From assembly GCA_947625045.1 (NCBI GenBank), contig CANQMW010000022.1, positions 1 to 47,417 of the forward strand: a stretch of DNA of 47,417 nucleotides, in the 5' to 3' direction. The notes under the pieces are model-generated. The model was not told where the DNA came from and did no database searches. It was given only the letters and a program-made list of their open reading frames with translations. A program made the position numbers and the translations under genes. Shown here piece after piece: positions 4,801-47,417 of the stretch; the stretch's first letter is position 1; the number at the start of each line of letters is the position of its first letter. Source of the DNA: an uncultured Oscillospiraceae bacterium. Its GTDB lineage: Bacteria > Bacillota > Clostridia > Oscillospirales > Oscillospiraceae.

Positions 4801-6006
4801 CTATGCGATGGCGTTTTCCATGGAGAATATGGGCAGGTAGATGGCCAGCAGGAGAACCACCACGATGACGGCCAGGAAGGCGATGATGATGGGCTCCAGC
4901 ATGGACAGGGCGCGGGCCGTGGCGGTGTCCACCTCGTTGTCGTAGTACTCCCCGATGATCTCCAGCATGCTCTCCATGGCGCCGGTGCTCTCGCCCACGG
5001 CGGTCATCTGCACCAGCATCTTGGGCAGGTGCTTCGCCCTGGCCATACACTCGCCCAGGGATTTGCCAGACTCCACGCCGGGGATGGTTTCCAGGATCTC
5101 ATGGCTCATGCAGTAGTTGGACATGCTCCGGCCCGCCACGGACAGGGACTGGAGGATGGGCGTGCCCGCCGCCATCATGGCGGACATGGTGTGGGCGAAC
5201 TGGCTGGCGCCGCTCATGAGGGCGATGCGGCCCAGGACGGGCAGGCGCAGACGCATCTTCGCCAGGGTCATGTGGCCGGAGCCGGTGCGGCCCCAGAGGA
5301 ACACCGCCAGCGCGAAGGCCGCGACGCCCAGGATGAGGTGGAGGAGATGCTGCTGCATGAAATCGGACAGGTTGATGAGCATGCGGGTGGGGAGAGGCAG
5401 CTCCGAGCCCATGTCGGCGAAGGACTGGGTCATGGCGGGCACGGCCACCGTCACGATGACGATGACGACAACCACCGCCGCCAAAAGCACGAAGGCAGGG
5501 TAGATCATGGCGCCGGAGACGGAGTTTTTCGTCTTCGCCAGACGCCCATAGTAGGTACTCATGCGGGCAAAGGCGCCGGACAGGTCGCCGGTCTCCTCGC
5601 CGGAGCGGATGGTCTCCACGAAGGCGGTGGGGAGCTTTGCCCGCCGCTGGAGGCTGTAGGACAGGCTCCAGCCGTTGGACACGTCCTCCGAGGCCTGCTT
5701 TAAAATCTTCGTCAGGACCTTGTCCTGGCACTGGCCGGACACCAGGTCCACCGCCTGGACCAGGGGCAGACCGGCTTTTAAGATGATGGAGAACTGCTGG
5801 CAGACGATACTGAGGGCCTTGGGGTCCACCTTCTTGAAGGAGGTGAAGTCCTTGGCCTTCTGCTGGGTGTGGACCTCCCTGACGGACAGGATGGTGTCGC
5901 AGCTCTGGCGGATGAGCACCACGGCTTCCGCCTGGGTCGTGGCCTCTACGGTGCCGGTGACCTTCTCACCGTTGGAATAGGCGCCCTGATAGTAGTAATA
6001 AGGCAA
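4801..6006 (-). CDS. pilC: PilC, type IV pilus inner-membrane platform protein (GspF family)
   Basis: This 401-residue platform protein has two GspF domains (about residues 70-190 and 270-395), each followed by hydrophobic segments. The clear membrane helices are YPAFVLLAAVVVVIVIVTVAV, HLILGVAAFALAVFLWG and the C-terminal IIIAFLAVIVVVLLLAIYLPIF. PilC binds the PilB and PilT motors and transmits rotation to the growing fibre base. The start is a TTG: an in-frame stop lies three codons upstream, and GGAG is placed 9 nt before the TTG. An overlapping ATGATG in another frame looks tempting but does not read PilC. It is downstream of pilT by 35 bp. Confidence 0.95.
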   Translation of the reverse strand: MPYYYYQGAYSNGEKVTGTVEATTQAEAVVLIRQSCDTILSVREVHTQQKAKDFTSFKKVDPKALSIVCQQFSIILKAGLPLVQAVDLVSGQCQDKVLTKILKQASEDVSNGWSLSYSLQRRAKLPTAFVETIRSGEETGDLSGAFARMSTYYGRLAKTKNSVSGAMIYPAFVLLAAVVVVIVIVTVAVPAMTQSFADMGSELPLPTRMLINLSDFMQQHLLHLILGVAAFALAVFLWGRTGSGHMTLAKMRLRLPVLGRIALMSGASQFAHTMSAMMAAGTPILQSLSVAGRSMSNYCMSHEILETIPGVESGKSLGECMARAKHLPKMLVQMTAVGESTGAMESMLEIIGEYYDNEVDTATARALSMLEPIIIAFLAVIVVVLLLAIYLPIFSMENAIA

Positions 6007-6041
6007 AGAACATCATCTCCTTTCCGAGAGGATGGGAAACG

Positions 6042-7133
6042 TCAGAAGTGATAGCGATTGGGCGCGGGGGCGGCGGAGGCGCCGCCCGGGGCGTTCTTCG
6101 ACGCCAGGGGGTCCCGGAGGGCGGATTCGTATACCTCCCGGGAGATGTCGCCCTTGGAATAGAGGTTCGCCAGGGTCTTGTCCATGAGGATGTTGCCAAG
6201 GCCCGCCGTGGTCTGGATGATATTGCTGATCTGAGGGGTCTTGCCCTCCCGAATGAGGTTTCGGATGGCGCTGTCCACCTTCATGACCTCGCAGGCCAGC
6301 ACCCGGCCCGTGCCGGACTTCCGGGGCAGGAGCTGCTGGCTCAGCACGGCCCGGAGGGTCATGGACAGCTGAAGCCTGATCTGCTGCTGGCGCTCGGCGG
6401 GGAACACGTCCACGATGCGGTCGATGGAGTCGGCGGCGGAGTTGGTGTGGACTGTTCCGAAGACCAGGTGGCCCGTCTCCGCGGCGGTGAGGGCCGTCTC
6501 GATGGTGTCCAGGTCCCGCATCTCGCCCACAAGGATGACGTCCGGGTCCTCCCGCAGCGCCGCCCGCAGGCCCGCTGCGAAGCTCTTGGTGTCCCGGCCG
6601 ATCTCCCGCTGGTTGATGACGCATTTCTTCGGCGTGTAGACGTACTCCACCGGGTCCTCCAGCGTGAGGATGTGCTTGGACTTGGTTGCGTTGATGCGCT
6701 CCAGGACCGAGGCCAGGGTGGTGGATTTGCCGGAGCCGGTCTCGCCGGTAATGAGGACGATGCCCTGGCTGTAGCCGGGGAATTCCTGGACGACGGAGGG
6801 CAGGCCCAGCTCCTCCATCCTGGGGATGTGGTCGTTCAATAGACGCAGCGCCACGGAGCAGTGGCCCTGCTGCATGAATACGTTGAGACGGCAGCGGACC
6901 CCGGCGATGGTCTGGGCGAAGTCCAGCTCGCCGATCTTTATGAGCTCGTTATAGTGGTCCCCGCACAGCTCCCGGGCGTACTGGCGGCAGTCGGCGTCCT
7001 GCAGGGGCTGGGTGCCCGGGGCGTCCACAAGGGCGCCGTCCACGCGGAAGCGGGGGGGAAGGGTGCAGACCAGATGCACGTCGCTGGCCCGGCTTTCGTG
7101 GGCCAGGTCCACCAGGTCGTGGATGTTCATCAT
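6042..7133 (-). CDS. pilT: PilT, type IV pilus retraction ATPase
   Basis: This 363-residue hexameric secretion ATPase powers pilus disassembly. It shows a Walker A motif TGETGSGKSTT near residue 129, a Walker B/Asp-box region (DPDVILVGEMRDLDTIETAL), the His box (HTNSAADSIDRI) and the PilT-specific AIRNLIREGK motif near the C-terminus. Length matches the family, with a 20-residue Ala/Pro-rich tail. Its presence implies retractable pili able to support twitching or tight surface contact. It starts with a double ATG preceded by AGGAGA, 15 bp after pilB. Confidence 0.96.
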   Translation of the reverse strand: MMNIHDLVDLAHESRASDVHLVCTLPPRFRVDGALVDAPGTQPLQDADCRQYARELCGDHYNELIKIGELDFAQTIAGVRCRLNVFMQQGHCSVALRLLNDHIPRMEELGLPSVVQEFPGYSQGIVLITGETGSGKSTTLASVLERINATKSKHILTLEDPVEYVYTPKKCVINQREIGRDTKSFAAGLRAALREDPDVILVGEMRDLDTIETALTAAETGHLVFGTVHTNSAADSIDRIVDVFPAERQQQIRLQLSMTLRAVLSQQLLPRKSGTGRVLACEVMKVDSAIRNLIREGKTPQISNIIQTTAGLGNILMDKTLANLYSKGDISREVYESALRDPLASKNAPGGASAAPAPNRYHF

Positions 7134-9753: not shown

Positions 9754-10580
9754 GACGTCGCGCCTCCGGCGTCATAGGCGCTCTCGATATCGCCCTGCTT
9801 CCACGTGACAGCAGGGGAGGCGGGTATAGGCGTTGTGGTGTCATCTGTGGGTATATCGATATCCGGAAGGGTGGAAGAAGAGCGCGTAAGCTTCGTGGAA
9901 AGGCGGAAGTTTTTGGCGTAGCTGTCGGCGCCGTCCCCGGCCAGATGAGCCGTCAGGGTGATGCCGTAGCTGTCGTCTATTTTCACATCCACTGCCACTT
10001 TGCGGGCGGCATCATAGGTGTCGTCATCCTCTGTGACCGGCAGATCCTCCGGGGAGACCGTCAGGGTGAATGCTTGCTCGTCGGAAGCGGCGGACGTAAA
10101 GTCGTTGATATATCTGTACTCATCGTCGCCTAAATAGGAATCAGGAAAACTCTTTTTGCTCATATAGGTGCTGAAGATCATGTCAAGGCTCTCCTGAAAA
10201 AGGCTGCCAAGACTGCCGCCTTTCATCACGCACGTCCCTTTGCTGAGGGTATGGGTATAGGTAGTGATGGTCTTTTGCTCGGGCACGCCGTTCTCATCCT
10301 CGGTGCCCGGGATATTTTCCTCACGTGTTGTCACAGAACAGTCGTCGTTCACCTGAGGGGTATAGCTGGTCCGGGCCAGGTCGTCGGCCACAAGCTGCAG
10401 GGCGGAGGACAGGGAGAGATAGAGCTGCTGTTCCGCATGGTTGCTGCGGGTGCGGCCCGCGTTGGAGGCGGCGGCGGAGAGGATGGATACGCCCACCATC
10501 ACGCACGCCAGCACGAATACCAGCGCCAGCAGGATGGACGCGCCGCGGCGGCTGTTCAGTTTTTCCGCGGCGCGTTTCAT
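9750..10580 (-). CDS. PilX/GspK-like pilus assembly protein
   Basis: This 276-residue protein has a basic start (MKRAAEKLNSRRG) and a hydrophobic stretch ASILLALVFVLACVMVGVSILSAA. The segment resembles the degenerate prepilin signal of PilX/GspK-type proteins, which lack FTLIE. The remaining 240 residues are polar and predicted extracellular, with two cysteines and a Thr/Pro-rich C-terminal section. It starts 15 bp after the giant prepilin gene and overlaps the next minor pilin by 4 nt. In other T4P systems the PilX/GspK member helps to cap and initiate the fibre. Here that is inference from position and N-terminal layout. Confidence 0.7.
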   Translation of the reverse strand: MKRAAEKLNSRRGASILLALVFVLACVMVGVSILSAAASNAGRTRSNHAEQQLYLSLSSALQLVADDLARTSYTPQVNDDCSVTTREENIPGTEDENGVPEQKTITTYTHTLSKGTCVMKGGSLGSLFQESLDMIFSTYMSKKSFPDSYLGDDEYRYINDFTSAASDEQAFTLTVSPEDLPVTEDDDTYDAARKVAVDVKIDDSYGITLTAHLAGDGADSYAKNFRLSTKLTRSSSTLPDIDIPTDDTTTPIPASPAVTWKQGDIESAYDAGGATS

Positions 10581-24823: not shown

Positions 24824-24844
24824 CTATACAACAATGAAACACAC

Positions 24845-24943
24845 ATGAATTGGCAACTGACGGTGAGCGGCGAACGCAAGGGAGCCAATTTCATTGTTTT
24901 TGCCGACCGTCTGGGCAGTTCTATTTGCAGCAAATAGAACTGC
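24845..24943 (+). ncRNA. ZTP riboswitch (pfl motif) with overlapping hairpin expression platform
   Basis: P1 is AATTGGC (24848-24854) / GCCAATT (24884-24890). It encloses the conserved ACTGACG joint, a small P2 (24867-24877) and GGGAGC. After a linker, P3 (TGCC 24901-24904 / GGCA 24914-24917) holds the hallmark CCGTCTGGGCA. The pseudoknot GACGG (24859-24863) with CCGTC (24907-24911) replaces the usual GGCG/CGCC pairing, a compensatory change. A perfect 13-bp hairpin (24915-24927 / 24931-24943) shares the 3' strand of P3, so aptamer and hairpin exclude each other. The hairpin lacks a clear U-tract, so whether control is by termination or translation is open. ZTP accumulates when 10-formyl-THF is scarce, matching the genes downstream. 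Confidence 0.9.
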
Positions 24944-46560: not shown

Positions 46561-46649
46561 GGAGAGATGTCCGAGTGGTTTATGGAGCTGGTCTTGAAAA
46601 CCAGTGACTCCGCAAGGGGCCGGGGGTTCGAATCCCTCTCTCTCCGCCA
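46561..46649 (+). tRNA. tRNA-Ser (anticodon UGA)
   Basis: Acceptor GGAGAGA pairs with TCTCTCC (46639-46645), followed by G and an encoded CCA (46647-46649). The anticodon arm CTGGT-CTTGAAA-ACCAG gives UGA. There is a long variable arm, as in class II tRNAs, and a T-loop GTTCGAATC. Confidence 0.97.
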
Positions 46650-46698: not shown

Positions 46699-46790
46699 GG
46701 AGAAGTACCCAAGAGGCCGAAGGGGCTCCCCTGCTAAGGGAGTAGTGCGTGATGAGCGCAGCGCGGGTTCAAATCCCGCCTTCTCCGCCA
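46699..46790 (+). tRNA. tRNA-Ser (anticodon GCU)
   Basis: Acceptor GGAGAAG pairs with CTTCTCC (46780-46786), then G and an encoded CCA (46788-46790). The anticodon loop CTGCTAA gives GCU. There is a long variable arm and T-loop GTTCAAATC. It lies 49 bp after the first tRNA-Ser, probably on the same transcript. Confidence 0.97.
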
Positions 46791-46834
46791 CGTCAGAAGA
46801 GCTTTGAAGATTCGAGGTCCTGGCAACGGAGGGG

Positions 46835-46889
46835 TTCCGTAAGACAGTGTGAAACCGAAAAATTGAAAAGTGACAACTGCCTTACGGAA
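46835..46889. repeat. Imperfect inverted repeat downstream of the tRNA genes
   Basis: TTCCGTAAG (46835-46843) pairs with CTTACGGAA (46881-46889). After one mismatch CAGT pairs with ACTG, enclosing a 27-nt A-rich loop. Function unknown; it may be part of the tRNA trailer or a small mobile remnant. Confidence 0.5.
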
Positions 46890-46910
46890 TTGGAATCGAC
46901 AGAGCAGACA

Positions 46911-46948
46911 GCGGCTGGTGCGAAATGCACCAGCCGTTGCCTGTTGTA
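46911..46948 (+). terminator. Terminator-like hairpin after the tRNA genes
   Basis: The perfect 10-bp stem CGGCTGGTGC (46912-46921) / GCACCAGCCG (46927-46936) has loop GAAAT and is followed by TTGCCTGTTGT, a weak T-rich stretch. It ends just before the 176-bp repeat array. Confidence 0.5.
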
Positions 46949-46951
46949 ATC

Positions 46952-47417
46952 TACTTAAAACTTTTGAAGTATGTCACGCAATGGACCCCCGTTTTTGATG
47001 GGTGCCGTATAGTATCATTCCCCCTTCAGCTTTGGCGATTTGAACCTGTTGTGCCGCAAGGGTTTCAGAAGCTCTAAAGCGTGACATCGAACCCCTGTTT
47101 TTCATAGGCGTTTATATGCGGGGCGGATACTTAAATATTTTGAAGTATGTGACGCAATAGACCCCGGTTTTCGAGGTGTGCCATATACTACCCTTACCCC
47201 CCTGACTTTGGCGCTCTGAAAGCCCCACGCCGCAAGGGGGCTGACCGGCCAAAAGCGTCACATCGAAGCCTTGTTTTCACCGGGTCACACATATAGTAGC
47301 AAATCATTAAATATTTTTAAGTATGTCCGCATATAGACCCCCTATTTCGGGTGTCGCCATATACCACCATTACCCCCTTGCGTTTAACGGCTCCAATCCC
47401 TTGCGGCAGAAGTGGTC
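46952..47417. repeat. Tandem array of a 176-bp structured repeat (copies 1, 2 and partial 3)
   Basis: The copies start at 46952, 47128 and 47304 (cut by the window end at 47417). Matching landmarks recur exactly 176 bp apart: the AT-rich near-palindrome TACTTAAA...TTGAAGTA, then ATGTSACGC, GACCCC, CCRTATA, CCCCC, TTTGGCG, GCCGCAAGGG, and GCGTSACATCGAA. Arms ATGTCACGC (46971-46979) / GCGTGACAT (47079-47087) in copy 1 become ATGTGACGC (47147-47155) / GCGTCACAT (47255-47263) in copy 2, keeping the 9-bp pairing. Inside are TTTGGC/GCCAAA and a hairpin with loop GCCGCAAG. No reading frame is conserved between copies. Strand and expression are unknown. Confidence 0.85.

Follow-up and report, generated by a model that had tools for sequence, protein, structure and literature searches.

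Two tRNA-Ser genes and the array behind them

The window, by which we mean the whole stretch of 47,417 nucleotides analysed here, is the entire contig C22 of a 73-contig assembly. Towards its right-hand end, behind a pair of tRNA-Ser genes, lies an array of short repeats with complementary outer arms. The array consists of two full copies and a third one which is truncated, since the contig end (position 47417) falls within it. The following features were recognized:

46561..46649, plus strand: tRNA-Ser (TGA), found by ARAGORN and Rfam
46699..46790, plus strand: tRNA-Ser (GCT), found by ARAGORN; the array unit follows immediately 3'
46791..46826, plus strand: left half of a palindrome which contigs of two relatives (L276, L277) carry in full after this tRNA; the junction with the array unit falls approximately at its apex
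46835..46889, plus strand: module X, in which TTCCGTAAGACAGT and ACTGCCTTACGGAA form an inverted repeat; other families have a similar module at a distance of about 100 bases from the element
46905..46943, plus strand: hairpin in the interval from module X to copy 1 (repeat and hairpin listing)
46970..47088, plus strand: element copy 1 (model R2, 53.8 bits, E 2.9e-11; model R3, 88.3 bits)
47146..47264, plus strand: element copy 2 (model R2, 62.2 bits, E 1.9e-13; model R3, 89.7 bits)
47322..47417, plus strand: element copy 3, ended by the contig end (model R2, 22.5 bits, E 0.0036, truncated)

The repeat starts are spaced by exactly 176 bases (46952, 47128 and 47304), with copies 2 and 3 sharing 78% and 62% identity with copy 1 over the 93 bases compared. 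Both this regular spacing of diverged copies and the preservation of the outer arms by a paired change had been reported in the first-pass annotation, and both are borne out: the arms ATGTCACGC (46971-46979) and GCGTGACAT (47079-47087) of copy 1 are replaced in copy 2 by ATGTGACGC (47147-47155) and GCGTCACAT (47255-47263). The 5' arm of copy 3, ATGTCCGCAT, is located at 47323-47332, and its partner lies beyond the contig end. The repeat observation is real, and it proved to be larger than first stated. Elsewhere in the window, a ZMP/ZTP riboswitch was identified above its gathering score (24843-24923, 47.9 bits).

Arrays in the same genome and genus

Contig C19 of the same genome contains a second array (approximately 565-1050, locus L006), composed of three complete copies. 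In the third of these, ATGTCCGC (934-941) pairs with GCGGACAT (1043-1050), which is the 3' arm that had been predicted for a third copy and that copy 3 of the window ends short of. When the C19 array was used as a blastn query, matches were obtained in 21 of 119 genomes, including that of the window, all of them within its genus. A single genome of the genus can carry up to 15 matches (E<=1e-4).

Most of the genus units that were read comprise module X, a hairpin, two or three copies and two further hairpins, often followed, on the other strand, by a Cys-rich KTR gene, and some units are remnants. They adjoin differing chromosomal genes and their right ends also differ, one stopping directly after the last hairpin and others within the KTR gene. 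A divergent further copy with other arms, TGTAATGGTATAGA/TCTAAACCATTACA, is present in the same genus at L036 468-585.

The tRNA locus of the window was compared with the loci of 19 relatives, using an exact 18-base match to the tRNA end. In 11 of them the tRNA runs straight into other sequence, often a hairpin, without an array; one of the remaining eight ends at the tRNA end, and the match was not found in seven. On the contigs of two relatives the tRNA-Ser end is followed by a complete palindrome, of which only the left half remains in the window, which indicates that the array unit was joined approximately at the palindrome apex. The placement of the array behind the tRNA pair, as first described, stands, but the tRNA genes constitute only a local landing place, at which 11 relatives carry other sequence. 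The window copy is probably a fragment stranded in the chromosome after insertion behind tRNA-Ser, without a function of its own there.

The C19 array is situated upstream of mobC and has the same sense as this gene. For this reason oriT was considered as the identity of the array repeats, and was rejected because only C19 carries the array among the 23 loci found with the C19 MobC protein, several of which run into a contig end or contain remnants. Module X (consensus TAARACAGTAT...GGTARCTGCCNTAC) also occurs near the element in several families (L064, L065, L068, L101, L124, L140 and others) and is perhaps an oriT or an attachment site. The sequence upstream of mobC in L230 (approximately 9840-9950) differs from module X. 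It represents a second dispersed sequence, GTTTGGGA...CCCAACAAGC...GGGTACCC...CTATGCTTGCT, which is shared with L172 (approximately 5950-6075) and L136 and, upstream of the L230 mobC, looks like an oriT; the homology between L172 and L136 ends directly after CTATGCTTGCT.

These surroundings bear on the idea that the repeats are single-strand DNA elements serving conjugative or rolling-circle replication, for example as single-strand origins. An inverted repeat of this kind is able to fold as a strand, and its position in C19 is behind module X, a neighbour of mobC that could be oriT-like. However, the orientation of the element relative to the presumed transferred strand differs between C19 and L172 on the one hand and L230 on the other, at oriT positions that are themselves presumed, and we consider this explanation quite improbable.

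A family beyond the genus

A first covariance model, built from 61 genus copies, gave weak matches in 9 of 400 genomes of a family sample (4 of the 9 in the genus) and in 11 of 391 genomes of a class sample, the window's own included. The distant matches have in common a long outer stem, a similar length and a central ATATA/GTATAAA motif. A pattern of two arms separated by a gap of 80-100 bases was then found in at least 120 genome stretches and in 5 viral contigs. Among the 80 titles listed, most are Lachnospiraceae, Oscillospiraceae and other Clostridia; several are labelled only as bacterium, and one metagenome-assembled genome is labelled Alistipes. The 125 stretches yielded 126 copies, 95 of them distinct. 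Their length is fixed: 113 of the 126 measure 114 bases, though the pattern permitted a range of 20. Across the family the element is about 114-120 bases long.

Two further models were constructed. Model R2 was based on 41 copies, one of which is a divergent copy from the window's genus and none of which comes from the window; its base pairs were one column out of register, so that it acted as a sequence profile, and it recovered all three window copies with the scores listed above. In model R3 the register was corrected and the window copies were part of the training set. R3 matches at E<=1e-4 were obtained in 18 of 35 genomes of the genus and, counting that of the window, in 44 of 391 of the class. 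In the phylum sample 14 of 398 genomes matched, namely the window's own, three others of its family or class and ten from beyond the class. The search of related genomes with a covariance model, as originally proposed, has thus extended the distribution well outside the genus.

No Rfam 15 family reaches its gathering score over the element, which agrees with the initial statement that no named RNA class is known for it. In L065 (2657-2839) a match to RF03532 scores 49.2 bits, below the gathering score of 100. The genus array has no match in the plasmid and phage collections, in which the distant copies match two plasmid records and one phage record. Contig L184 (7.4 kb), the label of which is Alistipes and thus no Clostridium, carries three copies. 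In the literature text covered, part of the writing on Tn1549, antitermination, structured RNAs and DUF6017 (subscription papers and preprints lie outside this scope), no description of the element was found; the arm sequences gave no relevant match there, the only hit being a wheat study whose title and abstract show it to be unrelated. What can best be defended is that the repeats belong to a widespread family of inverted-repeat elements of conjugative elements, so far apparently unnamed.

Position relative to transfer operons

Clustering of the flanks of the 126 copies produced a few recurrent types. In one flank class, read on the minus strand, 49 of 49 copies, which are homologous loci and not 49 independent cases, have a ribosome-binding site and ATG 26-28 bases downstream and a run of five or more T residues 7-9 bases upstream. 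Where read (L113, L231 and L316), the downstream gene of this class encodes DUF6017 and is the first of a transfer operon. Another 13 copies overlap the 3' end of a gene that in L108 is a Cys-rich VLP gene. Both situations occur in the Monoglobus record NZ_OY725736.1, with one copy before the DUF6017 gene and, about 20.5 kb away and in the same orientation, a second one where the Cys-rich VLP gene ends, so that a 20.5-kb transfer operon is bracketed by the two.

A common right flank, containing orf8-like and orf7-like genes where read, is shared by 25 copies. Their left flanks fall into 15 different clusters starting at the element edge. Over the whole set, a given copy type keeps its right flank in most combinations. 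In this orf8-like context the element lies approximately 138-252 bases past the stop codon of the orf8-like gene, behind an orf7-like sigma gene (L114, L115, L123, L159 and L172). Placement behind orf8 near the end of a mobile element is confined to this one context (the same five loci, with L065 and L099).

The neighbouring gene lies on the minus strand of the element in seven contexts that were read (genus KTR, DUF6017, Cys-rich VLP, orf8-like with three right-flank types, and L171), and has the opposite sense in two divergent contexts (L092/L096 and L090/L097). Many copies occupy chromosomal places without a transfer gene in view. Terminator-like signals were counted near 77 arrays (left plus 45, left minus 35, right plus 51, right minus 64) and in 262 control windows (62 on the plus and 50 on the minus strand); we give this enrichment little weight, since the loci compared are homologous and the minus-strand window on the right exceeded the control in length.

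Arms, folding and strand

The outer stem is 87.2% paired in the 61 genus copies. When the two stems named in the first pass were examined jointly in these copies, three of five measures exceeded all 500 shuffles, which (here and below) take no account of relatedness among copies, while the counts of pairs changed on both sides and of further pair types were reached by 487 and 496 of the 500. Against a tree-based null no pair of the genus alignment passes, the best outer-stem pair being second-ranked with an E of about 3. In 34 diverse copies, pair 8-118 attained a score of 42.7, compared with a maximum of 40.9 in 200 tree-based null alignments (CG in 13, TA in 9, GC in 6 and AT in 2 of the 34), and no other outer-stem pair passes. 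Pairing of the outer helix amounts to 89.0% in a set of 43 copies; this percentage, the number of doubly changed cells and the covariation score lie above all 500 shuffles, and two counting measures were reached by 12 and 1 of the 500.

The internal columns of the 95 pattern-chosen copies, the arms of which are fixed by the selection, display no significant covariation, and the alignable inner stem (P3) is 67.2% paired in the 61 genus copies. The suggestion that inner stems are maintained is accordingly weak; the covariation expected in a larger alignment appeared at outer pair 8-118 but not at the inner pairs. The best reading frame is open in only 51 of the 95 copies, and a small conserved peptide was rejected on these grounds. 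The view that selection acts on structure rather than on protein holds as far as the frames are concerned, but selection on RNA structure does not follow from this: of the stems only the outer one is supported, and within it arm positions 10 and 14 show combinations approximately as expected for independent arms. Complementarity between the arms is maintained, which falls short of proving a folded RNA; a protein binding both arms would have the same effect.

The strand in use was assessed in several ways, all pertinent to the possibility that the element acts in cis as a leader RNA (by antitermination, attenuation or processing) on the strand opposite the window plus strand, analogous but unrelated to canT of Tn916. 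Over the first 14 stem positions of the 95 copies, wobble pairs favour the minus strand by 103 to 9, and RNAalifold energies are lower on this strand in all five sets. On the other hand, the wobble bias is carried by positions 10 and 14 only, each of them compatible with independent arms, the ratio is reversed (6 to 12) in 14 other sequences, and the folds of five complete single copies (z from -1.8 to -5.2 on the plus and from -0.4 to -3.9 on the minus strand) show no strand preference; the lack of internal covariation also counts against a leader RNA. Moreover, as the T-run of the 49-copy context ends 7-9 bases before the element, a leader RNA that starts further upstream would need to get past a likely terminator before reaching it. 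Sigma-70 (vegetative) promoters are not enriched in the copies on either strand, and such a promoter within the element was rejected.

By location, canT is the nearest known system. It is a cis-acting antiterminator RNA, and the fragment described in PMC11658703 reaches 126-577 bases after orf8. Like canT, the element is non-coding and found downstream of genes of the orf7-orf8 type in conjugative elements, and in the orf8-like context the two positions overlap, which speaks for a leader RNA. Homology with canT is nevertheless not supported: with filters off, R3 detected nothing at E<=1 in the regions behind orf8 of Tn916 and Tn1549 (L232 and L233), and no significant match in that of a Vescimonas element (L235). 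In Pusillibacter (L234, 5761-5881) a weak R3 match (16.1 bits, E 0.049) lies 132 bases past the orf8-like stop. The Tn916, Tn1549 and Vescimonas regions differ from the element in having a common motif of their own, recognized by eye around ATGNTACTC...AGTCCGAGCGT and absent from the element; this motif could form the basis of a canT family model. There is also a likeness, by the description in PMC11658703, to conAn of pLS20, a cis-acting element in a Gram-positive transfer operon. On balance a leader RNA appears rather unlikely.

Close arrays and dispersed palindromes

A spacing of 173-176 bases recurs outside the genus in five arrays from four genomes of another family, and other close tandem arrays have a spacing of 128-129 bases. 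In the seven close arrays that were read, neighbouring units differ in their arms, for example AGTGGAACAATAG beside TGTCACGCAGTAG, in either order. Widely spaced copies (approximately 370-430 bases) can have the same arm. Differing arms are an observation on the close arrays seen rather than an established rule. Copies also occur as inverted pairs, at distances of about 370-400 bases, in L105, L109, L158, L173, L178, L185, L199 and L200.

MITE, REP, BIME and RUP sequences are short, dispersed, non-coding palindromes, frequently located at gene ends. The element resembles them in being a short dispersed non-coding palindrome, and differs in its link to the genes of conjugative elements, its tandem units with differing arms and its recurring spacing. 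It could therefore be a selfish, non-autonomous mobile palindrome (MITE- or REP-like) moved by an unknown enzyme, its nearness to transfer genes resulting from hitch-hiking. The number of matches per genus genome, the varied chromosomal neighbours, the 15 left-flank clusters that end at the element edge and the junction of the window unit near a palindrome apex are all in keeping with mobility, and terminal inverted repeats, a feature of MITEs of DDE transposons, are present. However, none of 78 flanks has a direct repeat of four or more bases, and two-base repeats occur in 4 of the 78 (5.7 expected), so that a transposon making target duplications was rejected. The linkage of right flank and copy type, the conserved close spacing and the differing arms of neighbours would not be expected from a random inserter, and we regard a selfish palindrome as unlikely.

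Integron attC sites are palindromic sites at gene ends with a GTTRRRY core. The element is similar in length, location and palindromic nature; attC was rejected, as the element arms (GTTACGC/GTCACGC/GTCCGC/GTGGAAC) do not fit this core and have the reverse order.

A putative control region at operon boundaries

The explanation we favour, if only tentatively, is that the array consists of copies of an inverted-repeat family of the conjugative and mobilizable elements of gut Clostridia, most likely acting in cis as a control region between the end of one operon and the start of the next. Direct observations are the family itself, its constant length, its location next to transfer genes and its maintained arms; the control of transcription is what we infer from them. 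The sense strand would be opposite to the window plus strand. The 13-14 base arms, about 101 bases apart from centre to centre, would constitute the recognition feature, either as an operator pair bridged by an element-encoded regulator or as the stem that closes a leader RNA, and we lean towards an operator at the DNA level. Several observations count against a control role: the lack of sigma-70 promoter enrichment, the many chromosomal copies with no transfer gene in view, the two divergent contexts in which the neighbouring gene has the opposite sense, and the outer-stem pairs other than 8-118, which do not pass the null.

In its more general form, which we put forward with greater reserve, this proposal holds that fixed-length palindromic control elements of about 114 bases may mark operon boundaries in conjugative elements of the Tn1549 type and related kinds, across Clostridia and beyond, the units of a close array having arms of their own and so folding individually or responding to different regulators, and that they form a previously unnamed family.

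Many genes are carried from one gut Clostridium to another by conjugative elements of this kind, and little is understood of how their long transfer operons are controlled. If the proposal is true, fixed-length boundary elements would represent a new class of conjugation control element. Their presence in about one in nine of the sampled class genomes (44 of 391), and their placement at both ends of one transfer operon, would offer a direct handle on operon control, and the element could be used as a sequence marker for conjugative elements and their remains in draft genomes.
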